Of a DNA stretch of 64,000 bases, positions 14,781 through 61,529 are shown piece by piece. The position numbers were made by a program, and so were the translations under genes. Location of the stretch: the NCBI GenBank assembly GCA_025769875.1, contig JAGFNK010000009.1, forward strand, positions 186,001 to 250,000, given 5' to 3'. The DNA comes from Russula earlei (Eukaryota > Basidiomycota > Agaricomycetes > Russulales > Russulaceae). Numbering within the stretch: the stretch's first letter is position 1; each line of letters starts with the position of its first letter. A model generated the notes under the pieces. It did no database searches, had not been told where the DNA came from, and saw only the letters and a program-made list of their open reading frames with translations.

Positions 14781-17639
14781 CTACGGACGTCCTAGCCCGT
14801 TTAGGCTCACTTGCATCCACTCGTCACCTAGTTCCGTCACGACCTCCCTCAACACATTCTGGACGGCATCACGGTCTTGTCCACTTCCTTCCAAGTAATA
14901 CTTAATCTGTTGAGAGATTATATCGATTTCTCTTCTGTATTGATATGCCATCATACACACCTTCGGCTCCGTTCCGCTCGTTCTTGCTGTCAAGACGATC
15001 TTGGTCCCATCCTTCGAAGCTGCTCGAAATTGTATCATGTAGCCTGACGACAGCGGCAAGCTCGGCTTGTATGTGGGTGGGTTTGTGCTGTCATAGCCCA
15101 CGGTCAAGTCCACGACGCTAGTTACCTCCAAACCCGCAATAGATCTGGGATAGCTTGGCTCCTTGCTGGAGTCCTGGAAAGAGGCCTTCATCATTTACAG
15201 AATCACAGTGTAAAAGGAAAGTTTAACCTGTCCATCATAGTTTCGAAGCCGTGTGAAGATTTGGTCGACGACTTGTGGGTCGTCACAAATGAAATAGCTG
15301 TTGTTGGTCTTAACGCAAATCAGAGTCATGGTACCGATTCGCGCCAAAAAATGACATACTTGGAAATAACCGTATCTAGCAAAGGACAGGACCAGCAAAA
15401 GTCGCTGAACGATACCCACAACCAGTAATTACATACCTGTCATACAATTCTTGAAGGAAGCTGCTTGCGGTCTTTCCCTCTCTATGTAGCAATGCGACCA
15501 ACTCGGCGAAGAAAACCTTGACATAGTCAGGGACCGCCTCGGGACGCTATCTATGGTAGGATCTATACCGCCGCAGCGACACCATCCTTGTCACGAATCT
15601 CGGATCCGATCATGAAACCAATGGCCTCTTCGTACCCGAACGGAACCTCGAATCCCTGTTCGACCAAAGCTAAGGCGGTGTTGCCAATGTATTTGAAACC
15701 TGAGCTTCACTCATTATATCATGAACGTGACCACGCAGACGAAATACGAACCGGTGAGACACTCGGTAAACTTGAATCCCACGGCAGCTGCCATAGCCTC
15801 AATCATTTTGGAGCTTACGGTAGACGCCACCATGGAGAGTGTATCTGTACCATTTTGCAGCGAGAGCGAGTGCCTATTGGTACAACGTGGAGGGAAAAGG
15901 TCATGACGGGAACCTACTGAGCGGTTTACCCGACATCTTGTACACCTCCAGCGTTCTCCCAGCGAAAAGAGCGCCTAGCTGGTCTCCAGAAAATATCACC
16001 CAGGTCCCGTCAAGCCTGAGAAGACCTTGTATAGAGTATCAAAACATCTCATATCATAATCGTACCTTCTTTCTGCGGCGGAAAACCTATCTGCGTCAGG
16101 ATCCTGTGCGAGGACATACGTCGCGCCCGTGGATTCCGCGGTACGAATGGCAAGGTCCTTTCATCGCCCTTTAGCACCGTGCCCCGAATATAAGGCTTCC
16201 ATTTACCAGAGCTCCTAGAACCAGATCACGAACGTTGAACCGTCAGTCACGGGCAAAATACGGGGCATACCGGACTCTTCTGGATTCGGAAATTGGACCG
16301 AAGGGAATTCTGGATCAGGGTGTTGCTGTTCTTTCACGGGAATGAAAGGGTTGAAGCCAAAGCGCTCGAAAGCTCCGACTAACAAACACATCGCCGACGC
16401 CATGCATCGAAGTGTTGACAAATTTGACATCCGTAGATGCGTTGAGAGCTCTGGGACAATGCAATTCCAGCACGACGGGAAGGAGAGTTGTTTCGCCTTA
16501 CTTGTGCTGACTGAGAGAGGCTATGTAGTCGAAGTAACCTTCGACCATCTCACGAGTACGATCGATGCATAGTGGATCCGTAAGCACTGAGTCCGCATCC
16601 CATCTCCTCGGCTCTAGATTGGTAAGGATAGACGCTGAGATACCTGCGTCATGTGGACTGATAATCTGAGTAGTGCATGGGTTCGATACTAGTCTCCACC
16701 AATCCATTAAGGACCTACCTGGACTCCGTTCTCCCAGTATACCTAACAGGATGAGGAGTGTCTTACGAACACCGCCAACATATGCTCACCTTATAACCAT
16801 TGTCATTCTACGTCTACGTAAGTACATTATCGTTTGCCAGAGACATGATTACCTTTGGATTATGGCTGGCTGTATGATGCGATCAGTTACAGAGTGGAGA
16901 CAAAGATCGATTCAGGGACCTGTGATCATTATGCCACAGGATGCCTTCAATCTCTTCACGCCGAAAGGTACCCTAGATTCAGTGAGGCCACCATCGCGGA
17001 ACGCCATAAAAACACGACTTGCATCGGGGTGTGCACAAGGCCGCGATAGAGATAGGTCTTGATTCCTTTATCGATGAAAGCAGCAGCAGTCAGCCGGGCC
17101 CATCTTTCTGAGTTGTGTCTATGGTCATATCCGATAACTGCTCCGCGATCCCGAGCGTTCTCAACGTGCTCTAAAACGTAGGCAGCCAGGCCCTAAGGTC
17201 GTCTCTGTGTTGGACTGTTCTACTTTGGGGTACTGGATCATTTTAACGGACCTGCGAGGCCTGTATGACAATCAAATCATTCATGCGTGACCAACCTGCT
17301 TCCATCCGGCCACGAAGACCTAGAAAGGTCAGATCATCAGTGTCGATTAATTCTTCGGAATACGTTCATGTTTGATCAGACCTGCGGTTCCAAACGCTAT
17401 GCGAGAACTGATGCGTAAAAATTAGATGTGATCCAAAAGAACCCTAAAAAAAATGCATACCCAAGCCTTTTCTTCAATTCTCCAGCATGTCCTGCAGTCC
17501 ATAAATCAGTGATCTCCTGTTTGGTGCGAGGGTTCTTGACGTCCGTGATTTAGTAACATCACGTTAGAGCATGATTCGCACTTACTTGGTCGATGCGTAG
17601 CCACTCATGGACTAGATCTAGTAGCTCCTGAGTAGTCAT
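14781..17639 (-). CDS. Phosphoglucomutase/phosphopentomutase, PGM2 type
   Basis: Alpha-D-phosphohexomutase of the PGM2 (phosphoglucomutase-2/phosphoribomutase) branch, interconverting glucose-1-P and glucose-6-P or ribose-1-P and ribose-5-P in the cytosol. The start at 17639 ([18 protein letters not shown]) precedes about a dozen tiny exons. Substrate and catalytic motifs are present once introns are removed: [24 protein letters not shown]; the phosphoserine loop TASHNP, split over three exons near 16970-16830, followed by [14 protein letters not shown]; the metal-binding DPDADR region near 16100; [20 protein letters not shown] near 15620; and the phosphate-binding RTSGTEPK near 14960 joined to IKYYLEGSG. 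One intron (17022-16973) starts GC instead of GT. No disabling lesion was found. A decayed copy of its 5' half lies at 26150-27055. The exact pentose or hexose preference cannot be read. Confidence 0.85.
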
Positions 17640-17865
17640 CGTCGGTGAGTAAAACACTACACTCGGCGTATTTCGTATTTCGATTGGGTTCACCGGGCCG
17701 GCGTGGGCCTACAGATATCCACACGTTTCTGGTTTCTGTCCTAGGCATGGAATGATGAAGGTCATTCAGCACTGCCCCCTTGTAGCACTGCATCCGCAGA
17801 GTCGCTCTCCTTGCTTCAAGTTGTCCTCTTCATGAACACCCTCTCGTCCTCCGTCTGCTGAAACA

Positions 17866-20800
17866 ATGTCCGTCATCCTCCAGCCAAGCTATGCACTTGC
17901 GTTCAATCGTGCGTCCCTCTCCCTTACCTAGTCTCTTCCCTCACATCTCCTACCCGAAGGTCCTTTTATCAAGAACGTGATGCGTCCCCTTTACATCACA
18001 AATCCTAATGCCGATCCCATACAGTTCAAAATTAAGACGAACGCACCCATGGTGTGTCCATCTCCTGTTCAAACCACCCTCGCTTCATGTATCTCCCAAG
18101 TTGTATGCCGTACGACCAAACCAGGGGAGGGTCAATCCTGGAAAGGCCGTTGAAGTTCTAGGTGCAATATGTCTTCTAGTATTCGACGCGACGGGCTAAT
18201 GCGACGTGTCCCAGTAATGCTCCGAGCGAAAGAAGAGGAACCACCACTTGATGTGAAATGTAGAAACAAGTTTCTGGTCCAGAGCATCTTGATTTCCCCA
18301 GAGAAGACCTCCGTCCCTCTCGTTGAACTGGTGGGTCGTCTAAATGAAAGCTGGTCGTCACCTGACTTGGTATCCATATTGTCGCAGTGGTCTACACTCC
18401 CTATTCGCTCTCACAAACTTAGGGTTAACTATCTTCCACCCGAAGGTCACCCTCTCGACTCGTCAGGCCATCCTACTACTGTGCCAGGTGCTACACTCGA
18501 ACCTCCCCTTACAGACCCACCGTCAAAGCTGGAACAGCTACCGGAGAGATCCTCTAACGGAGCATCACCTTCTCTTGTTCCACCTGATACCGAGCCCACT
18601 TCGGCCACAAGAGTCGCGCCTGCTCATAGATCGGATATTGTCTCACCTCCAGAATCCCCTTTGACCGCGCTCATAGAGGAACCCCCTGCGTTGAATTCAG
18701 TGTCAAACGACTGCGCATACAATGTCTCACACCCTCCAGAATTCTTCAGTCGTGTTGAGATGGAGTACGCTGCAGACGCGACCCTGCCAGTTCAGCAGTC
18801 CGACGGGATTACATCGCATGGGACAGATGAACGACAGCTACTGACCGACATATCATCTCAGCGTGAAGAGGCATTTGCATACCCTATGATCTTCGACCCT
18901 CATAGATATGTTGCCAGGAGAACGAGTAGAAAGACAAAGTCTTCTTCTCCCAACTCCGTGTTCATCGATCATACTTCATCTTTCCTAATGGCCACGGGGA
19001 CTCTGCCCATGAATGTCGATGGTGCAAGTAGCACTGGTACGACAATCCCACCGCAGGACAAAATAGGACCTTGTGAGGAAGGGGCTGCTATACTCGTCAC
19101 TGGTAGCAGGTGTGTTCGCTACTACGTGAAGATGATGCTTGGCCATGACGACATTTACAAGGTCCATGGAAGATAGATTATTTGGTCATTCATCCGAGGG
19201 CATGCAATCTGCCTGGCAACCATGCGTGGCGGAACCGATTACGTTCTCAGATCCAGAGTGAGAGAAGTTTTCTTGTGCTATGACTCTCAATGTGACGACA
19301 TTACCAGACCTGTTTCAACGGGAGCTAGTTCAAGCAATTTTTGGGATGTACCATCAAGTGATGTGCCTCTCCCACGACCCCAGGAGGTTGGATGGCCTAT
19401 GTGAGTCGCTCTTCTGCTTAGAAATTCAAATCATTTTATTGAATACTTAAAGGCGGATTCAAAGAGTGCCTTCAGACCACCATGACGCAGGAAATAGCGA
19501 TGGCTATTCATCTGGAGCGTTTTTCGGGTATGACACAGGAACAGAGTACGTGAACGCACAACTCCCAACGGTATCTCCGTGTTTATTGTATATAGCGAGC
19601 CGCGTCCCCTTCCACAACCGCTTACAACTTTCATCAAATGTGCTCTGAACCACGGACAGACCCAGTCAGCACAATCAGGCTTTATTCTTGCCTCGCTAAA
19701 TGAGGATCTTGTATTACCTGTGCCAACGCGTCAGTTCACTAGCGTTGATTGGCAAGAATTTTCATTACCAGATGGCACCCACTACTTTGCAAACTCTACT
19801 CTGCATACGATCACGGATGTTGATCTGCGCAACACTGAAAAGTTAGATGCAGTCACGAGATTCCTTGATAGGTGTGATAAGGAAGACCTACCACCGCCAG
19901 AATGGGAATTATGGCTCCGTGATGGGGGTGAGCCAACGACACTTTTTATCCCACACAGAGCCTGGATACACCACGGGTCGCGGATGGTGGTGTTCGAACG
20001 TCCTCCAGGTATAAGCAAAGATGTTGATAGTACGTTGCGGAGACACACATGCGTCTATGCTGCTTGGATTGATAATTGTGCAGAGATAGAGTCGGAATAC
20101 CAGTATTGGTTATTCATGGGGTGCCATCCCCTTCATACGCCGCTCCCGCCAGGATCTATTGATAAAGCCATCAATGCTCTGGCGTGGTTTTATGCCAGTC
20201 AGTTCGTTTGTTCACTGTTGTTACCATTCATTCATCTTGTGTTAGGCCCGCTAAAACTGTCGTCCCACCATCGCCCATCCCCATTCAGTCAGGAGGAATG
20301 TCAGGAGTTGCTTACGCAACTTCGTTCTTTTAGCCGTGAGCCTCCTCGCAGTGATGTCTGGCCTCCTGACGTACATCCCACCTAGACACGCCTACACACA
20401 GCGTGTCACTTGTTCGCACACTTGTCGTGTCTACAACGCTTGGGCGGATTGGTAAGCTTTTGCCTAAGCGTGCAAGCTATCGGTCTTACCATGTTCAGTT
20501 GCATGGAGGCAAGGTCGTCGCTGGGACGGTGCGACATTTCAAGGTCCACGGAAGAATGACAATACTCCTTCAGCTGGCATCTCGCTTTTCCGTACTGCGT
20601 CTGACCCCTTCTTTTGGTCTGGCCTCCCTGGTGTTCCCTGGAATGATCACATCATCCCCGTTTCGGCACGGGAAGTGGTGTGCGGTGTGCTGCTGCTAGT
20701 CCTGTCCTTGTCAGTGACTATCGCGCTTGCTTTCCTGATTTGGATGCGTGATAGATAATTCAGATTCGGATCGCTATCGCTCTTTGTGCCGCACTGCAGT

Positions 20801-21366
20801 CCCACCCCCTAACACTTCTTCGTGTCAGCAACGCTTCGAGTGCGGGTTTCCCTGCCAGCTTTCTTCGCCCCTATTGCTGTAATCTCATCATTTGCCTACA
20901 AGTCGGGTATCGAAGACTTCACAGCGATCACTGGTAGGGAGGAATCAGATGTTCTATGGTTAGGAGTCGTTTGAAAGTACTTCCATTCATAACTACGTTT
21001 GGCCGACTCTGTACTCCTGAGGTGAACACAAAGCAACCACGCTTGGATGCCCTTTTCAGTCTGCATAAACGACGCATCTGGTTGGCGATAACTCATAACG
21101 AAAATATTGAATAAGTACGATTTTATCTTGTTATTCTTTCATGCTGTGTGATGATATGGACCTCATCTTTTCTTTCTGGCGGCTTGACTTCTGTGCACAC
21201 ATATTCCCTCGTCATCCGTGATCCCATCATGCTTGTCGAAAGCAAAAGGACAAGCATCTTCTTGTTCATCCTCATGTGGGTGTTCTCTTTCGACAAAGAT
21301 TGCCGGGCCACATATTCACAAGTTGATGTTTACGCTCGAAGAGGTAGTGGGCCGGTGGGTTCTTAG
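17866..21366 (+). CDS. MSP-domain (VAP-like) plus WW-like membrane protein, copy A
   Basis: The best-preserved copy of a four-copy family. The N-terminus (MSVILQPSYALAFN, then PLYITNPNADPIQFKIKTNA, YAVRPNQGRVNPGKAVEVL and KEEEPPLDVKCRNKFLVQS) is an MSP domain as in VAP/Scs2 ER-contact proteins that bind FFAT motifs. An open Pro/Ser-rich linker of about 280 residues follows (18330-19080). A 52-nt intron (GTGTGT to ACAAG) leads in frame to a second module: acidic N-part, WW-like WQEFSLPDGTHYFANSTLHT, WIHHGSRMVVFERP, EYQYWLFMGCHPLHTPLP, a hydrophobic helix before 20260, and after two introns AWRQGRRWDGATFQGPRKND and a strong membrane helix (20660-20750). This second module matches an agaric WW membrane family. 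Alternatively these are two genes: another frame gives a hydrophobic tail ending at a stop at 19129, 15 bp before an ATG at 19145. The 3' end is uncertain. Confidence 0.5.
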
Positions 21367-22506
21367 ATACTGACGAGACCAGCAATCTGTCGTAGCAGAA
21401 CGTATTCTTTGCACGGATGGGGTACAACAAGATGCCGGAATATCTAGCACTTGTTCCCGGCCACAATTCATGTATGTAGACCAGCGGCTGTGCTGTAGCA
21501 AAAGCGAGTGGCTATCTCCGAAAGGTCAGTATCATACGCGAATCAAAGGCTGACCAGACACGTCACATCAACTAGTATCGGGTTGTCATCTCACCGTCGT
21601 CTCTCGATTACGGATGTGCCCTTATCCTCTCTACCGAAACATGTGCGTCGTCCTCCTCGAGTTCATCGTGGCAGCTCGTATCGCACTCGATGCATGGCCA
21701 TTCCTGTTGGGAGCGCTTTCCGAACAAGTTCTCTGGGGCTGGAGCTAGCGGGAAACGAAACGAATCGTGGCGGTGGAACAGAATAGTGGTAAACCTGCCG
21801 TGTACTGGTAATGAGAGATTGTGAACCAAGATGAGCGAGGCGCACGTGCGGAACAACTCTCAAAAATAAAACAGTGTGTGACCGAACGCATCAGTAAAAA
21901 CCTCCTTTGCTAGCGAGTGATAATGTGGAGATAACAACGTGATTATCTCCGGCTAACCTCTCGCTACAGTAGCCCTCGCTAGCCCTCGCTAGCAAAGGAG
22001 GTTTTTCCTGATGCGGAGAAAGGGCACCCGGATCCGAATGTTAGCGGAACCCATTGATGTCATCCTTGTTGCCTCATGCTCATGTCCTTCATCGGTCTGT
22101 TGCAGTTGCCCAATGGTTGCTGGACCAGTTCAGACCAATTTACAACCAGTCCAGACCACACAGTTATAATAATGTAATATTATGTTATTGCGGCGCAGGG
22201 GTGTGGTATGTATACAGATATGAACGCGTAGTTTATTATCTCAACTCCCTTCCTCTCATCCTCTTCTCTCTAGTGCTTGCATATAAATCTCCTCAGCTAC
22301 TTTTGAACAGGATTCCTTATTCCCTTCAGGAGTTCTTGTTTTGACGTCTCACTCAGGCTTGCTCACCTCTCTTTCCTTGGGTGTGCACTAGATCCCAAGC
22401 CAAGCTTTTAGCCTTACAAACTTAGTGTGCCCTTCCCAGGTTCACTACAGAACAGACAGAATACAATCACATCAAGAGTAGGCCAGATGAAGGGGAGAAA
22501 AAAAGC
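21367..22506. other. No gene seen; contains a MITE-like element
   Basis: Only short frames without family resemblance. The first 120 bp (to about 21480) still resemble the corresponding 3' part of copy C near 39010-39160, so the duplicated unit probably extends this far. A small inverted-repeat element sits at 21888-22014. The stretch 22050-22350 is AT-richer. Confidence 0.5.
21888..22014. mobile_element. MITE-like element with 30-bp terminal inverted repeats
   Basis: 127 bp bounded by inverted repeats of 30 bp with one mismatch: the left begins GCATCAGTAAAAACC and the right ends GGTTTTTCCTGATGC. The interior holds AT-rich sequence and extra GCTAGC repeats, and no coding potential. No unambiguous target-site duplication is visible, so superfamily is unassigned. 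A terminator-like or extruding hairpin of other origin is possible. Confidence 0.55.
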
Positions 22507-26149: not shown

Positions 26150-27055
26150 TCTCTGAAAGAATGACTTGCTACAACACAGCAACGACATGGGTTCACCATA
26201 TAACCATTCCCATCCCACGGCTACGTATGCATTGTCATTTTAGAGATGGAATGATCTTCGGACTACGGCTTGCCGGGGTGACTCCGTCACGGTTAGTATA
26301 AAATTGATTCTAAGTTGAACACATATGCTACAGGTAACCTTCAATCTCTCGACGCCGATAGAAATTGTAAATTCAGTGAGGCCATCGTCCGGGAACCCCA
26401 AAGTACACGACTTGTGTTTACAAGGCCGCAATAAAGATAGGTCTTTACTCCTTTATCGATGAATGCAGCGGCAGTCAGCCACGCCATCTTTCATAGTGGT
26501 ACCTATGGTCCGATAACTTCTCCGCGATCCTGGGCGTTGTCAACGTCTCGAGAACGTAGGTTGCCTCTAAGGTCGTCTTTCTGCTGGCTTGCGGTACATT
26601 TTAACGGACCTGCGAGGCCTGTATGACAATCAAGTCATTTATGCGGGACCAACCGGCCACGAAGTAAAAAGTAAAAAAGTGAGATCGTCAGTGTCGATTA
26701 ATGCTTCGGAATACGTTCACAGTCGATTAGACCTGCGGTTCCGAACGCTATGCAAGAACTGATGCATATATGAAAATCAGATACGATCCCAAATTACGAA
26801 TGCATACCCAAGCTTTTTCTTTAATCCGTGGTCCATAGATCACCGATCTCCTGTTTGGTGCACGTCGGTGACATAGTGTTGAGACTTGACGTTGGGACAT
26901 TATTTGGTCAATGCGTAGCCAAGATCTACAAGCTCCAGAGTAGTCTCAGAATTCATCGTCAGTGAGTAAAGGACGGTAGGCAGAGAGTAATTAGTTAGAG
27001 CGGGCCGGGTTTGGCAAGGCCGATGTACTGCCTATTTATTGCCTTCCCGTGATAT
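26150..27055 (-). pseudogene. Decayed 5' half of the PGM2-type gene
   Basis: Nucleotide-level resemblance to 16740-17650 in the same order and orientation, including the N-terminal coding region near 26950, the intron preceding RIAFGTAG, the GYDHR region around 26490 and the ATAACCATT stretch near 26200. Internal deletions, frameshifts and a deleted stretch around 26860 remove any open frame. Position and orientation relative to copy B are the same as PGM2 relative to copy A, so one duplication event carried both. No function is expected beyond perhaps serving as promoter for copy B. Confidence 0.8.
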
Positions 27056-27135: not shown

Positions 27136-29877
27136 ATGTCCATCATTCTCAACCCAAGCAAGTCTCTTGGATTCAATCGTGCGTTCCTTCCCTATATTTT
27201 TTCACACTCTTGCCTCTCAACCTCACCTCAAAAGGTCCTTTGACTCGGAATGTGACCTGTTTCATAAATGTCACAAACCCCAATGCTCATCCCGTGTATT
27301 ACAAATTCAAAACCACTTTACCCAAGGTGTGTCTCTCCGTGTTCAAATCAACTTGGGTTCATGTATCTTCCAAGGGGAGTACCGTACGGCCCAACCCAGG
27401 GAAAGTCGATCCAGGTCAGACAGTTGGAGTTCGAGGTACTATATTTATTCTGGTATTCGACTTAGCGGGCTAACCTCATGCGTCCAAGTAATGCTCCTGG
27501 CGTTAGAAGAGGAACCGCCTCTTGATACGATATGTAGAGTCAAGTTCCTGGTCCAGAGCATCTTGATTCCCCCAGAGCAGGTCACCGTCCCTCTCCATGA
27601 ACTCGTGTGTTATCTAGTGTGTAAGCTGGTCGTCACCTGATTTAGTATCCTTATCTCCCAGTGGTCTACACTCTCTATTCACTCTCACAAACTTAAGGTG
27701 AACTATCTTCCCCCCGAAGGTCACCCTCTCGACCTTTCAAGCCATACTACTACTGTTCCAGGTGCTATATCAGAACCTTCGAGCACCGTTTCACCATCCA
27801 AGCTAGAAAAACCACCAGAGGGAACCTCCAACGGACCATCAACGCCCCTCGTTCAACCTATCCCTGTACTAAATTCTGACACAGAGGTCGCACACGCCCA
27901 CAAATCGGATATCGTCCCACCTCCAGAGTCGCCTTGGACCCCGCTTTATGAGAACCCCCCTCCGCCATATCCAGTGATGCCGATGGACCCCTCGACCGAC
28001 ATATCGTCTCAACGTGAAGAGGCAATTGTGGCCCCGATGATCTTCCACGCTCAAAATTACATCGCCAAGAGAACGAGTAGGAAGATGACCTCTTGTGCCA
28101 ATTCAGTGTCCATCGATCATACGTCATCCTTCCTCATGGCCAGGGGGACTCTGCCCATGGAGACTGAAAATGCGTGTAGCAGCGGTACGACAATCTCCAC
28201 GCAGGACTCTGTAGGACCTCGCCAGGAAGCGGTTGTTGCCCACGTTGCTGGTAGCGGGTGTGTTCATTGCTATATAAGAATGCTTCCCAATGACAACATT
28301 TACAAGGGCCATGGAGGATAAACCTGCTAATTCATTTGAAGGTGTGCAATCTGCTCCGGCAGCCCACACAGCAGAACAACCACTTGTCCCAATGCCCGGG
28401 TGAGATAATCTTTCTTGTACTTTCGTCCTGATGTGGACGGCATTACCAGAGCTGCTTCAATCGGAGCTAATTCTAGCAATTTTTGGGATGTACCACCAAT
28501 TAATGTTCCCCTCTCACCCCAAATGGAAGTTGGATGCTCTGTGTGAGTGGCTCCTCTACTAATGAAATTCAAATCAATTGATTGTATTCCTCAAGGTTCG
28601 TTCAAGCAATCCCTTCAGACCACCGTGCCGCAGGAAAAAGTGACAACTCCTCATCTGAAGAGTTCTTCGGGTATGACACAGGAATAGAGTACGTGAACGC
28701 AAGTCTTTCAAAGATATCTTCCCCCTTATCGTAAATAGCGAATCGCGTCTTCGACAACCATCTACCACTTCCGTCACAAATACTCTCAATCACAGACAGA
28801 CCCAGCCTGCACAATCAGGCATCGTCATTGCCCCCCAAAACGAGGCTGTACCAATGCGTCAATTCACTAGCGTTGATTGGCAAGAATTTTCATTACCAGA
28901 TGGCAACCGCTACTACGTAAACCTTACTCCGCACACGATCACGGACGTTGATCTGCGTAACTCTGAAGGTTAGATGCAGTGACGAGATTCCTTGATAGAC
29001 GTGATATAGAGGACATACCACCACCAGAGTGGGAATTATGGCTCCGTGATGGGAGTGAACCAACGACAGCTTTTATCCCACACATAGCCTGGATACACCA
29101 CGGGTCGCGGATGGTGTTGTTCGAACGTCCTGGATTACATCCAGGTATCAGCAAAGATGTTGATAGTAGGTTGCGGAAATTCACGCGTGTCATGCTTGGA
29201 TTGATAATTGTGCAGAGATGGAGTCGGAATACCATTATTGGTTATTCATGGGGTCTCATCCTCTTCATGCCCCGCTTCCGTCAGAATCCGCTGCTGAAGC
29301 CATCGATGTCCTCATGTGGTTTTATACCAGTCCGTTACTTTGTTCATGTCGATATCATCCATTCACGTTGTGTCAGACCCGCTACTATCTTCGCACGATT
29401 CCGCATCCCCGTTTAGTCAGGAGGAATGCCAGGAATTGATGTCGCAACTTCGTTCTTTTAGCCGTAAGTCGCAATTTAAGTAATATCTGGCCTTCTGACA
29501 TGACATACATCCCATCTAGACATGTCTGCACACCCCGTGTCACTTGTTCGTACACGTGTCGTATCTTCAATACTTGCTCGTGTCGGTAAGTTTTGGCCTT
29601 CCTCCTTCCTACGAGCTGTCGGGTCTTATCAGATTATTGTTTAGTTGCATGGAAACAAGGTCGTCACAGGGACGGTTCTACACTGCCAGGCCCACGGAAG
29701 AACAACGATGACCCTTCAGCTGGTGTTCCGCTTCTCCGCACTGTGGGGAACTCTTTCATTTTTTCTGGCTTTCTTAATACTCCCTGGGACTATCAAATCA
29801 AAGCTTTGGCACGGGAGGTGGTGCACATAGCGCTGCTGGCCTTGGGCTTGTCATTATTGCGTTTGTTTGTTTGATCT
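27136..29877 (+). pseudogene. MSP/WW family, copy B (frameshifted)
   Basis: Collinear with copy A from the MSP start (MSIILNPSKSLGFN) through EEEPPLDTICRVKFLVQS, the linker, the acidic N-part of the second module, WQEFSLPDGNRYYVN, EYHYWLFMGSHPLHAPLP, AWKQGRHRDGSTLPGPRKNN and a final membrane helix ending at 29877. Lesions relative to A: one extra base near 27620 (stop at the TGA of 27638-27640), one base lost near 28968 (TAG follows), and a deletion near 29195 that shifts frame in the WIDN region. The splice signals equivalent to A are kept, and one is better (GTAAGT after FS near 29464). It is inferred to be a non-functional duplicate, though short truncated MSP proteins could still be made. 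Confidence 0.75.
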
Positions 29878-30937
29878 TGGCTTAGATTTCCTGGCTACGT
29901 GACGTGGCGATGCCGCAGTGACATTCATAACACTTCTTAGCATCGACGCTCCAAGCGTGCGGGTTCCTGTCATCATTCTCTCCACATCTACCTTGGGTGT
30001 AATCTCATTATTCAGTTACCTTAAGTGGTCAGACTGAAAATTTTCATAGCGAATTGCGGAGAAGGGCCAAGCCTTCCTTTGCTGAGCCATTATAAAAGTG
30101 CTGACTCTCACAGGCTATGCTCCACCTGATGTGAGCAAATGGATTTTAGGTACGGGCCAGGGAGACTTAAAAATGCGCTATCCAAACAAAACACTGATGA
30201 TTCAGTGATGACGGGCAACCAAGTCACGACAATTCTCAGTACATTTTTATCATTATCACAGTTCTGTTAGTCAAATCGTCCTTTCATTCGAAAGTAAAGC
30301 ACGCATGAGGCGAGTGAACCAACAAGAGTTGGCCTGATGGCGAGCCAAGGCAATTGTACTGGTACCATGCTGTGCGAACACGAAGCAACTCAAGGACCAG
30401 GCCATCACGGGGGCACTGCTTGGTGATAAATTGTGACTGAATACAGTTTATCTTGCCTTGTGTTTTTTATACTGTATGGTATAGACTTGTGGTTTTTCCT
30501 TTCAGGTTGTTTTACTTCAGTTCCCTCATGCATGATTCTACTATCGTTAGGATGATTGGCCGCGGAATCGCGCAATACTTCCCCTCCCTCTTTGCTGCCT
30601 TGCCAGTGCTTGGATTCCTTTTCTCCTTTAGTTCCTCACTTTGCATACAGTGCTACCACTAACAGATGTTCCTGTGCCGTGTTTCGATTAGATCATTCGC
30701 TAAATATATTATATGTGCCCCAGACCCGGAGGTGTTGGACCCACTGCATCGTTCGGGCAGGGACGACGTTGCAAATGCCCTCGACTTGTGAAGGCGCTAA
30801 TTGAGTCGCGGGTATGGTTATGTATTCAATGACGCCCGCAAGGTGCACCGTCACGAGTCAATTTCATCATTTGTAACGACGCTGACAGACCGACCCTCTC
30901 CTTATCGTCCGACAGATCGAATACACATACAGTCTCC
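29878..30937. other. Decayed 3' tail of copy B, otherwise nothing
   Basis: The segment 29930-30010 resembles the membrane-helix exon of copy A near 20830-20900 (ISLFSY-like end), and 30430-30660 loosely resembles the last hydrophobic exons of A (21118-21300). No open frame links them. The rest shows nothing recognisable. Confidence 0.45.
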
Positions 30938-32762: not shown

Positions 32763-35700
32763 ATGGAGCCATCGACACCAGCTGAGCAGCGCGCCTTTGC
32801 CGTAGCCAGAATCAAGCGTACCCCTTCTCATCCTCGCATGAAGGATGGTCGAAGACCGCCTACGCACGTCGAAGCCGTCAGCGAAGGCGAAAGAGTACAA
32901 CTCGAAGCTCTGATGTTGGCTGCTCGCATGATGTCCGAAAGCCAGCACATAGATCATGATCGCCGATCCCATGTCGAACCAGAACCAGAACCGGAGCCAG
33001 AGCCGGAGGCCGATACAGAACATAGCGTGGCCAAAGTCGATTGATCCGAAAACTGAACAAGTACCCATCATCTCCCCCTCTGCGACACCCCTACTATCCG
33101 AAGGTTTCTCAGCCAAGCCGAGACGACGTTCGCGCACCCGTTCAAGGGGTCGAAGTTCCCAGGATTTCGCAGGCAAGACAAAGGTTACTCTCTACCCCAC
33201 AAATGCTGCGCCTTCTGCCAATGAGTCCTCACCTCATGAAAGCCCAGTCTCTTCCACTCCCCAACCGACTGCCTTGACCTCGCCGCCCCCCGTACCCCCA
33301 ATCCACGCTAATTTCGCTTTTCTCCAAGCTCCTCGTATATTCCCCTCTCCTGAACCCGGTACGATTTATCATGGAAGGCCACCAAAGACACCGGGGCCCG
33401 AACGCGCCCCATGGGGTTTGTTCCAACCATTGGCTGGGCCGGACGCCTATGATCCTTTACTTGCTTCGCCTCCAATCACACCACCACCACTTCCAGGGAA
33501 ATTATTTCGTAACAACACCGCCGGTGGAAGTGGGGGCGAGCGCATTGCAGCCCGCAAGGTGATGATGCGTCAACTTGGCAGACGTTTGAAGGAGGCGGAA
33601 GCAGAGCAGACAAGCGGAGGTGAGGACTCTCAACCCGCGACAACTGCACGTCGTAAGCAACGAGCAATACAACGCCTCCCTTCGACCCGGTCGACTGTGG
33701 TTGAGAGCCGAACACTTCCGAGCCACTATTGGGTCCCCCAAGTTACTCAGGATGGTCAGCAGGTAAGCCGTTCTTATATCTCTGCCTCTTCGTGGCTTAT
33801 ACATTCTCGATCAAAAATCCTTTTTTTGTAGATATACTACGTCAATACCCAAACCGGCCAACATTATATTCGAGACCTTCCCATTGACGCCGAGGGTGAC
33901 CTCTCGGAAGTCGATTTTCATGCGTCCTCCTCTACTGTGGTTGATGGTCGTGAATCACCATCCGCGGCGTCTCCGACGACCCCCCTATCCCCATCTGCAG
34001 CTGCCGATCACGGTCACGGTCAAGCCTCCCCCATCCCACGTTCGACGTACAATGGCCGCTCGGACAGACCTCCTCGAATCGCTTCTCCCCGTCCGCCTCA
34101 CGCTCCTGGTGTGCTTTTAAGTACATCGTCAGAGTCAGCTGATGCTTCCGCACCCGCCTATCTGTCGGTCTCTTCCCAAGAGCAACAAGAAGTATTTCCA
34201 ACTTCCCCTTTCGCCACACCATTGCGTGAAAAACAAGGCTCTGATGAAGAAGAGGACGCGCGTACCGATCATGAAACAGCGAGGCGTTCGCCTTGGAACG
34301 ACGCATACGACCGAGAGATTAGTTGGGTAGCTGAGATTGGTCAATTCCCTTCGGTTTGGTGCTCTTCTATGTTACTATGTTACTCATGACGTCCTCTCCA
34401 ATAGTGCCAGACCACATCCCTGTTCACGACGATAACGACAATGACGACCCGGACAATATGAACGAACCGAGGAATCATCCTTCCGTTGCGCGGCATCACG
34501 GTCACGGTCAAGCCTCCCCCATCTCACGTTCGACGTACAATGGCCGCTCGGACACACCTTCTCGAATTGCTTCCCACCGTCCGCCTCACGCTCCCGGTGT
34601 GCCTTTAAGTACATCCTCAGAGTCAGCTGATACTTCCGCACCCGCCTATCTGTCGGTCTCTACCCCAGAGCAACAAGAGGTATTTCCAACTTCACCTTTC
34701 GCCACACCTTTGCGTGAAAAACAAGGCTCCGATGAAGAAGAGTACGCGCGTACCGATAATGAAACAGCGAGGCGCTCGCCTTGGAACGACGCATACGACC
34801 GAGAGATTAGTTGGGTAACTGATTTAGGTCAGTTCCCTTCGGTTTGGTGCTCTTCTATGTTACTATGTTATTCATGACAATAGTGCCAGAACGTATTCCT
34901 TTTCATGACGATAACGACTATGACGACCCGGACGACATGGACGAACCGAGGAATCATCCCGATAATGAAACGGCGAGGCGTCCACCTTGGAACGACGCAT
35001 ACGACCGAGAGATTAGTTGGGTAGCTGAGCCTGGTCAATTCCCTTCGGTTTGGTGCTCTTCTATGTTACTATTTACTCATGACGCCCCCTACAATAGTGC
35101 CAGAACGCATTCCTGTTCACGACGATGACGACTATGACGACCCGGACGACATGGACGAACCGAGGAATCCTTCCGTTGCGCGGCATCATCCAGATCACGA
35201 CGAGCACGAGCATGAGTACGATGATGATTCGTTACCGCGTGCATTCCACTCGAAGAACCTTGTAGTAGACATCGAAGCCTCTCCCGAGGCACCGAAACAT
35301 TCTCAAATACCGCCATCACCGTCATCCGCTATTGTTCTTCCCAGACACCTCAGCAATGATTCTCGTATCTTCCCGGCCCATCTTTCGCTTTCATCGCCTA
35401 GTCCTCCCCAGCTCCCCTCTCCGAATACGGAGTACCTCGAGTGGGAGGAATCTTTACGCGTAATCGTCCCTGACACAAAGCCGAAGAAAAACGGAGAGAG
35501 CTCCCAAAGCCGGTGGGACAAGGTTAAGAATGCGATTGCGCGACTGGGGCCGCGAAACAATAGCATTAAGGAGCGAGCTAATAACACTGATTCTAGCACA
35601 AGGATGGAGAACGGTGCAAGCTTGACAGGTGCTTCCAAGCCAGACAAAGGTAATGAAAGATCACCTAGTGTTATATGTGCTTGTCTGATCCCATCGATCA

Positions 35701-36741
35701 TTATCAGAGCTTCGTTCTTCGTATTTCTCAAGTTCTTCTGGCGCTGTGTCCCCTGTCCCCCCGGCGTCCAGCGGGACTTTGCAAAAGTACGGTGGTGATG
35801 CAAAATTATTCCCTTTCCCTGGAATAAAGAGATTGGAGGAAGAGCGACGGACTCGTGGTGGTGGTGGTCTGTCGCTCAACGCATCTTCCCCTGATATTGC
35901 ATTGCCTCCTACTCTAGATGAATTTTCTGCCATAAGTTCTGGCTCGGCGTCATCGCGTACCCCTCATGCTTCTCCGGAAGTTCCTCGAGATCGGAAGTTA
36001 TCGCGCCGGGCATCGGACACACATCTTTTCCAAAAGTTCAACTCAGCGAACACTCCGCCAGCGTTGTCCTCACAATCGACTTCTCCATCTCTAGACCCCA
36101 CTTCTCCCTCCACTAGTAATCTTGACCGACTTGCTGGAACGTCACCTACAAATCGAGAGGGCGTCAAGACATGGCTCCGTGCGAAGAATCTTTTCCCGTC
36201 TCAGTCCTCCCAGCCCTCATTTTCTGGTTTGCAACAACCAGTTTCAGCTCCTGTCGTCATTACGCAGTCGGGATCGACTGACGAGAGCAGAAACCTCCCC
36301 GATCTTCTCGATGGCCGGAAAGAGAGGAGGGTCAATTGGGAGGACATCTGGACTCCGACCACTACCAATGGGAGTGCCGCGCAAAGTAGGCAGACTCAGA
36401 ACGTACCTGAACCCGAATCCTCCACACGAGAACTTCCATCTGCGGGATCTTTGACGCTGGAGACACCAGCTCGAGGCAGGTCATCCTTTAGTGAAGAACG
36501 TATCATCACTTCAAAAGGAGACGCCCAATCTGTGATGTATCCCACCCGGTTCATTTCGCCCACTCCAGACCCTAATTTGTCCGCTACGCCCAACCCAACG
36601 CCATCATTAGATGGTTACGCTAGCCAGTCCTCGCCCTCATCGTCGTCTTCGGAGCGCTTTTTGGAACCGACAACTTCGCGCACACCAGAGGAGATGATAC
36701 TCGAGCGTTTGGAACCTGCAGATGTCACACGGGTCACTTGA
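32763..36741 (+). CDS. WW-domain protein with duplicated exons, 3' end replaced by copy C
   Basis: Starts MEPSTPAEQRAF at 32763. A region rich in Glu-Pro pairs (32970-33012) is followed by a frame change near 33040 that needs an unseen intron or is a lesion. The continuing frame holds a basic Arg/Ser segment, APWGLFQPLAGPDAYDPL and, split by an intron 33762-33831, a WW-like domain (LPSHYWVPQVTQDGQQ + IYYVNTQTGQHYIRDLP). Then come three near-identical units (34009-35190), an acidic His/Asp stretch, WDKVKNAIARLG, another intron (35649-35708), KLFPFPGIKRLEEER and a Ser/Pro-rich tail ending MILERLE. Directly after LERLE, at about 36715, the sequence becomes copy C and stops at 36741. From memory, the tail resembles the part of agaric Sec7/PH-domain ARF-GEF proteins just before the PH domain; this is a weak inference. 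The normal C-terminus is missing. Confidence 0.55.
34009..35190 (+). repeat. Intragenic tandem duplication of exon plus intron (2 full, 1 partial unit)
   Basis: Unit 1 starts at 34009 and unit 2 at 34497 (period about 487 bp). A third, shortened unit re-enters at about 34955 (GATAATGAAAC...; 207 bp after its counterpart in unit 2). Each unit ends with the same exon end (PWNDAYDREISWV), an intron beginning GTCA.TTCCC and ending CAATAG, and the next exon start VPE/DHIPVHDD. Introns 34340-34404, 34828-34883 and 35034-35097 all split the codon after base 1, so every duplication keeps the frame. Confidence 0.9.
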
Positions 36742-39159
36742 TCCAACCGGCTCTACGTTCGACAGAACTGAACAAAGTGGGACGGATGTACGACAGTTCC
36801 CGATCAATATATCGTCTCAGCGTGAAGAGGCATTTGTGGCCCCTATGATCTTCGACCCTCACAGATATGTTACCAAGAGATTGAGTAAAAAGAAAAAGGT
36901 TCTCTTCTCTCAATTCAGTGTCCATTAGCCATACGTCGTCTGTCCTAATGGCCACAGGTACTCCGCCCATGAATGTCAATGGTACAAGTAGCATTGATAC
37001 GACAATCCCACCGCAGGACAATGTAGAACCTAGCAAGGAAGGGGTTGCTGTGCTCGTTTCTGGTAGTGGATGTGTTCGGTGTGTTCGTTGCTATATAAAA
37101 TTGATGATCGGCCATGACGACATTTACAAGGGCCACGGAAGAAACATCATTCGAAAATTCATTTGAGTGTGTGCAATCCGCCTTGGGACAGTGCGCGGTG
37201 GGGCCACCTACGTTCTCAAATCCGGAGTGAGAGAAGTTTTCGTTTTCTTGTGTAATCACTCTCGATGACGACATTACCAGACCTGTTTCAACGGCAGCTT
37301 GTACAAGCGATTTTTGGGAACTAGCACCAATTGATGTTCCTCTCCCACCCCCCCAGGAGGTTGAATGCCCTATGTGAGTCTCTCTAAAATGAGACTTAAA
37401 TCATTTTATTGAATACTTCAAGGCGTATTCAACCAGTGCATTCAGACTACCATGTCGCAAGAAATAGCAACGACTATTCATCTGGAGAGTTCTTCGGATA
37501 TGACACAGGAGCAGAGTACGTGGACGCACACTTTCCAATAGTATCTCCAGCCTCATTGTTAATAGCGAGTTACGTCCACTTCCACAACCGCATACGAAAG
37601 CCGCATCGAAGCGCGGACAGACCCAGCCTGCACAATCAGGCATTGTCCTTGCCTCCCAAAATGAGGCTGTACCAATGCGTCAGTTCACTATCGTTGAATG
37701 GCAAGAATTTTCATTACCAGATGGCACCCGCTACTACGTAAACCCTACTCTGCACACGATCACGGTTGTTGACCTGCGCAACACTGAAAGGTTAGATGCA
37801 GTGACGAGATTCCTTGATAGACGTGATATAGAGGACATACCACCACCAGAGTGGGAATTGTGGTTCCGTGATTCGAGTGAGTCAACGACAGCTTTTATCC
37901 CGCACAGAGCCTGGATACACCACGGGTCGCGGATGGTGTTGTTCGAACGTCCTGGATTACATCCAGGAAGCAAAGATGCTGATAGTACGTTGTGGAAACA
38001 CACATGCGTCCATGCCACTTGGATTGACAATTGTACAGAGATAGAGTCGGAATACCATTATTGGTTATTCATGGGGTCCCATCCCCTTCATGCGCCGCTC
38101 CCGTCAGGATCTATTGCTGAAGCCATCGATGCTCTGGCGTGGTTTTATGCCAGTCCGTTCGTTTGCTCGTTGTTGTCACCATTCATTCATCTTGTGTTAG
38201 GTCATCGCCCATCCCCATTCAGTCAGGAGGAATGTCAGGAGTTGCTAACGCAACTTCGTTCCTTTAGCCGTGAGCCTCTTTGCAGTGATATCTGGCCTCA
38301 TGACGTACATCCTACCTAGACACGCCTGCGCACAGCGTGTCACTTGTTCGCACACTTGTTGTGTCTACAACGCTTGGTCGCATCGGTAGGCTTTTGCCTA
38401 ACAGTAGAAGCTATGGTCTTATGATGTTTAGTTGCATGGAGGCAAGGCCGTCACTGGGATGGTGCGACATTCCCTGGTCCACGGAAGAACAATTCTTCAG
38501 CCGGCATCCCGCTTTTCCGTACTGCGGGTAACCTTTTCGCTTGGTCTGGCCTCTCTGATGTTTCCTGGAATGATCGCGTCATCGTAGTTTCGGCACGGGA
38601 TGTGGCACTCCTCGTGTTGTGCTTTTCATTATTATTGCGCTGGCTTTTCTGATCCTGGGTTATATTCTGCCTACGTGACCTGGTGGCAATTCTGCCTTGG
38701 ACTGTTATTGCTCTTAATGTGACATCCATCACACATCCTAGGGTCAGCGACGCTTCCACTGTTGTGGCTTTTCCTATCATTCTTCATAGTGCATCTGTCT
38801 TAGCTGTGAACTCATTCTTCAGCTTCAGGGTTTTATATACTCCTCTTCGTCATTGTATCTGTCTGGAAGTTTTACTTCTCTGTGCATGCGTCTTCATGGG
38901 TGGTTCCATTACCCTTGTCGAAAGCGAGGACGGGCATTTCTTGTTCATACTTATGGTTGTGTTATGCATTATCTTATTCGAAAAGGACTGCCGGGCGACA
39001 TATTCACAAGTTGATGTTTACACTCGACGGTACCCTCAGGTAGGCAGGTCGGATCATAGATTCTGGCGAGACCAGCGATCCGTGGCAGTAAAACATATTC
39101 TTTGCGAGGATACTGTACACCATGGCGCGGAATATCCAGCTTGTCCACAGTTCATGTAG
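36715..39159 (+). pseudogene. MSP/WW family, copy C (5'-truncated, fused to upstream gene)
   Basis: Homology to copies A and D begins at a PADVT/PADAT-like stretch directly after LERLE of the preceding gene, so the MSP domain and most of the linker are absent. The linker end reads SSQREEAFVAPMIFDPHRYV but slips frame near 36900 and stops at the TAG of 36926-36928. The second module is intact: acidic N-part from about 37120, WQEFSLPDGTRYYVNPTLHT, WIHHGSRMVLFERP, EYHYWLFMGSHPLHAPLP (frame 37675-38319), the intron after FS, the next exon from 38320, and a membrane helix near 38600. The last hydrophobic exon extends to 39159 (ATYSQVDVYTRR). The WW half could be expressed if it has its own promoter; as a whole the copy is truncated. 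Confidence 0.65.
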
Positions 39160-39945
39160 GCACGGTTGCGCTGTAATAAGAGGGGGTGGCCATACCAGTC
39201 TATTTCATATACGGATTCCAGGCTGCTGACCCAGACACGTGGGTTTAGCCTTGGCTGGTTGGGTGGGGGTTGGGGGAGGACTTTGACTTCCTTTCGCATG
39301 TCTGCGCTTGCTTTGGTGAGAGGCTGGTGAGGCTGGTGAGCATCTGTAGAGCGTTGAGTTCTTTGGCAGGGCGGGGGTCCCAAAGGGTAGGGACTGTTGT
39401 GCAGCATAGAGCACAGCTAACAGGCCAAGCAACCCACCTTAGAGGTTGTGCTAATGCTCAAGTGATATTGGGGTGTAGAGCGATATGTATACTTGTCTAC
39501 ATGTATGGTATTTATACCTCTATGACCTAGGGCTGTTCCTAAGTCTGAAAGAGGTGACGACAGGTGTCCACTATATCATGCACTCAGTGATGTGTGATGT
39601 GGAAATGTTCTAGATGCAGCATAAGGCTGTATCTTGTGATAGATAGCATAGTATGTGTAACCCTATTGCCATAAGTGCATATGCTAAAGTTCTGTCTAAC
39701 ATGTAACATCTATGAGTGGATCTTGAACCTTGTATGAAGGTCTTTGCCTTCTTTGATCCGTTCGGGTTCCGGTTCAACAGGGACACAATGAGAGGGTTGT
39801 TTACAAAGGGCTTTAGGATGTGGGCAGTGGCCCAGATGGACTCATCAGAGTTTCAGGTAAGCAAGAGCCAGGCCCAAGATGCTTGCCAGAGAGTCATGAC
39901 TGGGAGGAAGTAGCTGGGTACATTGTGGCCCTAGAGGGGGCACAA
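39160..39945. other. No gene seen
   Basis: Sequence between copy C and the gypsy relic. There are G-rich stretches (39245-39275) and no supported frame. It may include the remains of another element, because the gypsy coding sequence stops abruptly at about 39946. Confidence 0.4.
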
Positions 39946-40122
39946 AAGCATTTACCATCTTTCTTTTTTATCAGGAAGAACCCACTAGCATAGGGTGAGT
40001 TGGACCTTCATACATGTTTCAGTCTTAAATTCTGTTCAAGAAATTTTCCTTGTTCTTCCTTTTCTTTAGGTGAAAGAGGGTAGACTCTGCAATTTATTGT
40101 TGTTGGGGTGTCTGGTTTGAGG

Positions 40123-59844: not shown

Positions 59845-61529
59845 GTGCCACTACCACTTTGGTAGACCACGGCGGCCTCTTGTATACCGTACTCACCCAC
59901 ACACATTACGACGCTCTTCCTTTCCATCATCAACTTCATTTCATGGGACGTGCACAATGCAACATTCCGCACTTGGTTTCATCACTCGCGCGCCAGAATA
60001 TTGAGTGAGGTACGTACACGACGGAAATCTAAAGTGCGCAATCTTTTTGACTATTCTGTGTCATTGCTATCGATATCATCGCACGTTCTGTGTAGATCAT
60101 AAATCGATTGTGAGGAAGAGGCAGGAGAGAGGTAAATAAGATCTAGAAGAATCGTGCGAGGGCACGGAATGTAATAAGAAATGTGTTAAACAAAGTGATC
60201 GTACGAAGCGTATATCACAACAGGAAGCGAAAGGGGCTGGGGATATTCACAAGTTGTTCACCTAAGAGTGCCGCCCTGCGATAGTGTCCCCTGGGATGAA
60301 CGGGACGTTGAGATTGATAATGTAGATATAACCATATAAATTAGACAGCGAAACGAGCAAAGCAAACGGGGTGCGCTGTGATGTTCAAAGGGACGGAGGG
60401 AAGGTCAGTGGAAAGGTTATCAGGTCAAGTGTGAATCGGAGGTACTGGCCGAAGAGCAGAGTGCCCTGCGCTGGCCACAACGGATGAAGTAGAGAGACAA
60501 GGACGAGGACAGAGGACAAAAAAAATGTGGCCCCCGCCCCTCCTCCTTGTCTCTTTACTCTCCCCAACTGATGACGACCCCGCCTGGTCCCACAGACGCT
60601 ACGCCGATCAGACGCTCCGCCCTCGCAGCGTAAATACTTGAAGGCACACTTGTCGTCCGGAAGATGACCCATGACCCTCGATGGCGTCAAGGCACTGGCG
60701 ATGGTGTCCGCGCAACCATCCCTCCTCCTTGCTGGCTGAGCATATCCTCCAGCACCATATGCGTCTGGATCGGCACGCACGTCAGCCGCTCGAAGCCGAG
60801 CCAGCTTTGGTCAGACCCTGTGTGCTTGGTCTGCACATCGTGCATGACAAGAACGGATCCAGTGTGAATGCCGAAATTCTCATCTTTTTTGTTCGATTTG
60901 GCGGGTCAGGTGGACGTGCGTAGGTCAGAGGCGAATGCCTACAATAACTGGGCTCGCTGGTGAGAACGTGGCCACGCATCAGAGGCACACTGGTGGAGAC
61001 ACGACGGAAACCTATTGAACGTTCCCACAACATGGCCAGTTCCATGCTGTCGATCAGTTCGCAAGCAATGTTGACCAAAAGGTGGATCACTCACGAGGTA
61101 GGTCATGCCGTCCTGCCACAAACTCTTCCTCACAAGGACATCCAACGATTGCGCACCTGTGGTACCCTGATAGCGGCAGCCCCCCGAGGGGGTCAGGTGG
61201 CCGGGTTGCAAGGAAACCGCGTGGGTACGATGTTTGAGCTGTGGTGCAGTCATTCCGAGGGTCGCCCGGCGAAGTGTCCGTAGCTTTTGTATATAAGAGA
61301 CTTGGCTTGAGAGTCCAACCTTTTCATCGCACCCCAATACGAGTCTCTCTCTCTTTTGCTCCCTCATTCACCTTGAGCGAACATGTGATCTAACACGTGA
61401 TGTGAAATTACCATATATAGAAGAGGGGGGGGTCTATTCCACGCTTAAACAGCGTCCGCCACCCCCTTGTTCAGAGCATGCGATTTCGCCGCGCAGAGAA
61501 GGCTGCTGTCCCTCTTGATTTACTCGGGT
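59845..61529. other. No recognised gene
   Basis: Several open frames of 60-140 codons on both strands (for example minus 60780-60385 and plus 60960-61283), but none shows a motif or convincing splice structure. G/C-rich stretches and a poly-G run near 61425 were noted. A gene of unknown family cannot be excluded at 60600-61290. Confidence 0.35.

Follow-up and report, generated by a model that had tools for sequence, protein, structure and literature searches.

NLRs with integrated domains join one constant part to unrelated host domains. Excerpts of two earlier reports describe chimeric genes that arose by tandem duplication or from transposon-carried gene fragments (PMC5460883, PMC1947982), and MSP domains are described in an excerpt of a further paper as binding FFAT motifs (PMC11944328). 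The VAP/Scs2 family (PF00635) comprises tail-anchored MSP proteins, and the Russula earlei gene described here, copy A, resembles them in its N-terminal MSP domain with most of the conserved residues and in its one C-terminal hydrophobic helix; moreover, its head is derived from the VAP gene of R. earlei itself. Unlike in VAP/Scs2 proteins, the coiled coil and anchor are replaced by a linker, a WW-like module and another helix, and the VAP's own C-terminal tail anchor is absent, the homology stopping just before it. The best explanation, to which we assign a probability of about 0.68 from sequence comparisons, is that 5′ heads have been swapped onto a shortened tail, copy A being a VAP in which stalk and anchor were exchanged. 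Copy A lies in the window, the whole 64,000-nt stretch analyzed (contig C9, 186001-250000, of a 66.6-Mb assembly), and its parts are as follows.

17866-17908, 17960-18051, 18101-18161 and 18215-18330, plus strand: exons 1-4, the MSP head, a VAP-derived copy that retains the VAP intron positions
18388-19109, plus strand: exon 5, the end of the VAP part (to LPPEGHPL, about 18456) and then the long tail-family linker, in a single open frame
19110-19161, plus strand: intron 5, GTGTGT...ACAAG, inside the old tail family
19162-19545, plus strand: exons 6-8, linker leading into the module
19596-20335, plus strand: exons 9-11, paired WW-like module and helices
20386-20758, plus strand: exons 12-13, ending in one hydrophobic helix, followed by the stop codon TAA

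The model of copy A (window 17866-20758, plus strand) is open from the ATG at 17866 to the TAA at 20758, with no internal stop; it has 13 exons, 12 GT-AG introns of 47 to 57 nt and 759 codons, and it ends well short of position 21366, to which a preliminary description had extended the gene. A Pfam scan placed the MSP domain at residues 3 to 97 with an E value of 1.2e-17, above the PF00635 cut-off (scored on a provisional exon joining, the MSP part of which is identical to that of the final model), and searches against the PDB matched VAP/Scs2 structures, down to 1.3e-15. The proposal that MSP and module form one fused gene is supported by this MSP score, the open model and Ka/Ks intervals below 1 in all MSP pairs and in seven of ten linker pairs. 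By a simple hydrophobicity scan, the single C-terminal helix covers residues 736 to 754 (about 20684-20740) and sits in tail-family DNA, not in VAP anchor DNA; both VAPs scanned in the same way also show one C-terminal hydrophobic helix. The second half of the model is 98.8% identical to a public R. earlei protein, P0001, over 401 columns, 4 of which are gaps from one splice choice.

Linker, junction and module of copy A all match a tail family of the Agaricomycetes. The module region has 35 database relatives of 502 to 1,247 residues, and the precomputed annotation lists PF00635 in none of these 35; at least 150 residues precede the module in 29 of them and 74 to 129 in the other six. Within the R. 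earlei genome, ten DNA alignments with paralogs run continuously from linker into module, and the gene at C76:42k retains the full ancestral form. Linker and module evidently belong to one old protein, found in MSP-free relatives across the Agaricomycetes. The longest relative, P0073 of Bondarzewia mesenterica, is a 1,247-residue model with an Rce1-like protease domain, which is either a fusion or a merged gene model.

The name WW for the module has partial support, the predicted structure being suggestive and the sequence profiles staying below threshold. In the predicted structure of P0001, the linker is poorly modeled, and the module, with pLDDT values mostly at or above 85, forms two three-stranded sheets followed by helices. 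A Foldseek search with this model gave nothing at an E value of <0.001; the top 12 rows (E = 0.03 to 0.29, with poor overall superposition) were chains of NEDD4-type ligases, MAGI2, KIBRA, PRPF40A and Prp40, all of which we take to be tandem WW domain proteins. The VIA rows of the structure comparison cover chiefly the helical part, residues 241 to 321. Of the two HMM scans that had been suggested, the one for Motile_sperm thus found its domain in copy A, but Pfam WW had no match in the module at E values up to 10. Among ten relatives, two modules matched WW at 0.022 and 0.053, both below the cut-off. At E values up to 1, WW was found in 11 of 43 family members, and the best match (6.3e-11) is the N-terminal WW domain of P0003, which lies outside the module.

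The C-terminus differs within the family. By the same simple scan, copy A has one hydrophobic segment and P0007, P0070, P0074 and P0086 have six to seven. A new C-terminus, consisting of a WNDH-I-like motif and then one helix, is present in copy A, P0003, P0009 and P0012 and absent from P0006, P0007, P0008, P0010 and P0070. Matches of copy A to the ancestral membrane region lie partly in a different frame from the last exon of the model, and therefore, the single helix may have arisen there by a frameshift. Decayed matches to the ancestral multihelix C-terminus are also seen at or beyond the tail ends of copies B, C and E (29912-30019, 38428-38829 and L027 795-953). In a tree of the module built on 17 of 19 loci, the derived tails fall into one clade (100/98) with P0010 of Russula dissimulans and P0012 from JGI, to which C76 and R. 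compacta do not belong; this grouping and the shared new C-terminus indicate that the derived tail is probably older than R. earlei. P0012, a member of the derived clade with 381 residues, is read without introns from a 1,310-nt JGI contig, as expected of spliced RNA.

The preliminary description had taken the GTGTGT...ACAAG intron as the link between the fused parts. This is contradicted by the relatives: since MSP-free proteins already carry linker and module together, the intron is older than the VAP fusion and lies inside the old gene, and splicing across it alone would not prove the fusion. The intron itself is real and is 52 nt long in copy A, as had been stated, but our model places it at 19110-19161 instead of 19093-19144. 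Its ends and phase, reported as shared by copies A to D, are indeed the same in A, B and D and also in E (52, 49, 52 and 52 nt); in copy C, however, the aligned donor is AT, with a GTGTGT about 10 nt downstream. The public proteins of copies E (P0002) and D (P0005), compared by eye, read across this intron.

The VAP donor is found elsewhere in the genome. R. earlei has its own intact VAP on the minus strand of contig C77, with MSP domain, stalk, coiled-coil region and anchor, and this gene was the sole report of a whole-genome search with the MSP profile, which scores exon by exon. DNA homology between copy E and the C77 VAP begins about 100 nt upstream of the VAP ATG and ends at the QVVVT codons; past this point, the chimera carries the tail motif, which in the C76 gene begins at the Met of MPSPVAESPAREA. 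The pentanucleotide TGTCA occurs in one and the same codon phase in the C77 VAP, in copies D and E and in the C76 gene. Judged from these alignments, the true joint lies upstream of the named intron, where a duplicated VAP gene was apparently severed immediately ahead of its tail anchor and fused to the PSPxxESPxRE motif. The VAP stalk and coiled coil before the anchor are deleted in A and B and retained in D and E; after the fusion, the stalk would have been lost in frame from A and B and most of the MSP domain from D. A fusion search with P0002 gave 56 matches among 7,992 scored candidates, and, judged by length and precomputed annotation, all matches other than P0002 are MSP proteins of 315 to 436 residues. 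The proteome search that had been suggested for MSP plus this tail thus returned P0002 itself, but no VAP-tail fusion was recognized outside R. earlei among these candidates, and the VAP fusion appears to be known from this one genome only.

As had been described, the window holds four copies, with starts at about 17.9, 27.1, 36.8 and 61.5 kb; a fifth, copy E, lies just outside at about C9:251.3-254.8 kb. The parts beyond copy A are listed below.

27136-29823, plus strand: copy B, with MSP head, linker and module; a single missing base in exon 9 (near 28967) breaks the module frame
33964-36759, plus strand: fragment of the C63 gene upstream of copy C (DNA 86 to 88% identical), at present in a frame different from that of the tail
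36757-38605, plus strand: copy C, linker and module without MSP, with a one-base insertion in the linker
61480-64000, plus strand, onward to about C9:250.8 kb: copy D, in which the VAP stalk and a repeated coiled-coil part are kept, followed by linker and module

Contrary to the claim that all four copies carry the MSP domain, only A and B do so in the window, and E does outside it; of the MSP part, D retains only the 3′ end, together with the VAP stalk, and C lacks it entirely, carrying instead the fragment of another gene, which overlaps its tail by at most 3 nt. Measured as net length per aligned exon, frameshifts relative to A affect one exon in B, two in C and three in E, and from exon 5 on there are none in D, the last exons of which are also open. 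With B, C and E frame-broken and most of the MSP domain lost from D, decay of the array may be under way. The C9 copies cluster together in the module tree (100/99). The flanks upstream of A (16930-17653) and B (26324-26970) are 71% identical over about 0.7 kb, indicating that the duplicated unit extends past the gene. A and C also share a flank (21163-21515 and 38850-39193). The C63 fragment, 2.8 kb long, has internal tandem copies at 34007-35188. Further repeats in the window are two inverted pairs (44726-45263/47881-48425, 96% identical, and 54910-55369/57216-57677, 90%) and a three-copy direct repeat at 40122, 44042 and 50892 (86 to 98% identical). In copy E, the splice sites of the first VAP intron (L026 7342-7440) are gone, and P0002 has 13 extra residues there.

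The preliminary description had overlooked that other loci of the genome bear this tail behind different heads. Genome searches gave 54 matches with the module and 30 with MSP plus linker, which we treated as 19 loci after allelic-looking contigs had been set aside. Seven head types are recognized (excluding the heads at C61:68k and C37 and the loci C61:110k and C413:46k), and five of the seven are in frame at the joint, meaning that the head end and linker share one open frame there, with phases checked by hand. Those out of frame at present are the C63 head of copy C and a C13-related head at C61:83k. Heads outside the C9 array include the following.

C61:101k, also C1295: homeodomain head (3.2e-17 once its two exons were joined manually), the second half of which opens the linker frame; C49 has a related gene
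C61:89k, also C413: eIF4G head, matching eIF_4G1 at 6.4e-16 after manual joining of exons (the part of eIF4G known to bind eIF4E); C104 has a related gene
C61:114k, also C1301: ILEI head (1.9e-22); second copy at C61:105k
C75:77k and 82k: WW heads (7.2e-10 and 3.3e-12); further copy at C75:86.8k

A C2 match (8.6e-7, pieces joined by hand) lies upstream of the WW head at C75:77k, and P0003 is the public single-protein model of this chimera. One stretch after the homeodomain head at C61:101k resembles C134. At C61:119k and 124k, the N-terminus looks ancestral by eye. In the C61 array, an 89%-identical duplicated block of 3.7 kb ends at C61:114,143, and tail homology begins at 114,147; this position of the ILEI joint fits the formation of chimeras at duplication breakpoints.

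Constraint on the chimeras appears mostly weak and purifying and is absent in some parts. There are no stops among the aligned codons of A to E. For the MSP domain, Ka/Ks is 0.55 (0.30 to 0.94) between A and B and 0.35 (0.20 to 0.62) between A and the C77 VAP, and all six pair intervals lie below 1; Ks among the MSP copies is 0.5 to 0.8. The linker gives 0.37 to 0.74 over ten pairs, with the interval below 1 in seven and including 1 in three (A-D, 0.51 [0.32 to 0.83]), and the module gives 0.24 to 0.55, with the interval below 1 in nine of ten (A-D, 0.49 [0.30 to 0.81]). In exons 6-8, the values are 0.55 to 1.05 and all ten intervals include 1; at the C-terminus, they are 0.37 to 0.87 and several intervals include 1. 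One pair of eIF4G heads shows no constraint (1.76 [1.00 to 4.03]). Across 55 database MSP rows, 67 columns are conserved, of which A and E each keep 49 and B keeps 46; of 24 variable columns, 8, 8 and 9, respectively, are identical to the C77 VAP. Copy A retains K40, T41, K84, F85 and L86, and N replaces T42 in an otherwise invariant column; these are columns that we take to form the FFAT site.

The arrays could be a nonadaptive by-product, that is, graveyards of gene fragments in which joints are accidental and open frames are remnants that have not yet decayed. We regard this as unlikely, though worth serious attention. The broken copies B, C and E, the loss of most of the MSP domain from D and the two out-of-frame head types would all be expected, as would the eIF4G-headed copy at C61:96k, which is in frame at the joint with its linker frame broken further on, the eIF4G pair with Ka/Ks above 1 and the values of exons 6-8, which are compatible with neutrality. 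However, accidental joining does not sit well with five head types in frame, with copy A entirely open despite a Ks of 0.5 to 0.8 between MSP copies or with intervals below 1 for the MSP domain and nine module pairs. VAP and eIF4G are housekeeping genes, and this, together with the VAP 5′ flank carried along (100 nt or more), would suit a related idea: promoterless tails survive once a gene with constant expression has supplied promoter and start, the head being passive baggage. A passive head is, however, hard to reconcile with copies A, B and E, which keep conserved MSP columns far more than variable ones, or with the MSP interval below 1 between A and B, and we consider capture for expression rather improbable as the explanation.

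That a VAP-like gene and a module gene are merely neighbors, joined in appearance only, is suggested by P0001, the public model of copy A, which spans the module half only and starts within exon 6. Against this, exon 5 contains both the VAP part and the linker, leaving no intergenic space, and the linker is part of the tail family in paralogs and relatives; the two-gene reading is largely excluded. A bolder guess is that the tail family is a fungal analog of immune receptors with integrated decoys, with the tail as a constant reporter and the VAP, eIF4G, C2-WW, homeodomain and ILEI heads as baits that duplicate host proteins exploited by mycoviruses or other parasites. The guess draws on how mixed the heads are and on the use of yeast VAP by a tombusvirus, a plus-strand RNA virus, described in an excerpt of PMC4199759. 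We consider it very improbable; if true, fungi would have a new form of defense.

In our preferred model of head swapping, an ancestral Agaricomycete gene of about 900 residues would have encoded a long N-terminal part, the paired WW-like module and several membrane helices. In Russula, a duplicate of this gene would have acquired a shorter C-terminus that ends in one hydrophobic helix. The arrays are unstable, and segmental duplication together with ectopic end joining may then have repeatedly swapped the 5′ end of the tail for the 5′ part of other genes; in the C9 array, the VAP gene would have served as donor, with the joint immediately upstream of the VAP tail anchor. If transcribed and translated as one protein, copy A is predicted to be tail anchored. 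Its VAP-type MSP head would lie in the cytosol and could bind FFAT motifs, and the WW-like module would offer a further protein-binding surface close to the membrane, so that the protein would amount to a VAP whose stalk and anchor have been exchanged. Such a protein might tether membranes, titrate FFAT proteins or have no action; all three are possible. Copy A is a natural experiment in which an MSP head was moved onto another membrane protein. More broadly, one mushroom genome records how one conserved membrane gene has again and again given rise to chimeric genes in frame, and with donors or relatives locatable for most heads, the mechanism and fate of domain shuffling become testable.

Copy A shares linker, junction and WW-like module with the uncharacterized Agaricomycete family of about 900 residues (P0007, P0074, P0086 and the C76 gene); unlike in that family, its N-terminus is replaced and its C-terminus is cut to one helix. 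Like NLRs with integrated domains, the tail is one constant part combined with unrelated host domains in unstable arrays, but the constant part in R. earlei is a membrane WW-like protein and not an NLR. Unlike in transposon-carried chimeras, no mobile element was noticed in the sequence comparisons at the joints. What sets the head-swapped tails of R. earlei apart, as far as the sequences tell, is that the tail of one membrane gene stands in frame with several unrelated heads, the VAP fusion among them.
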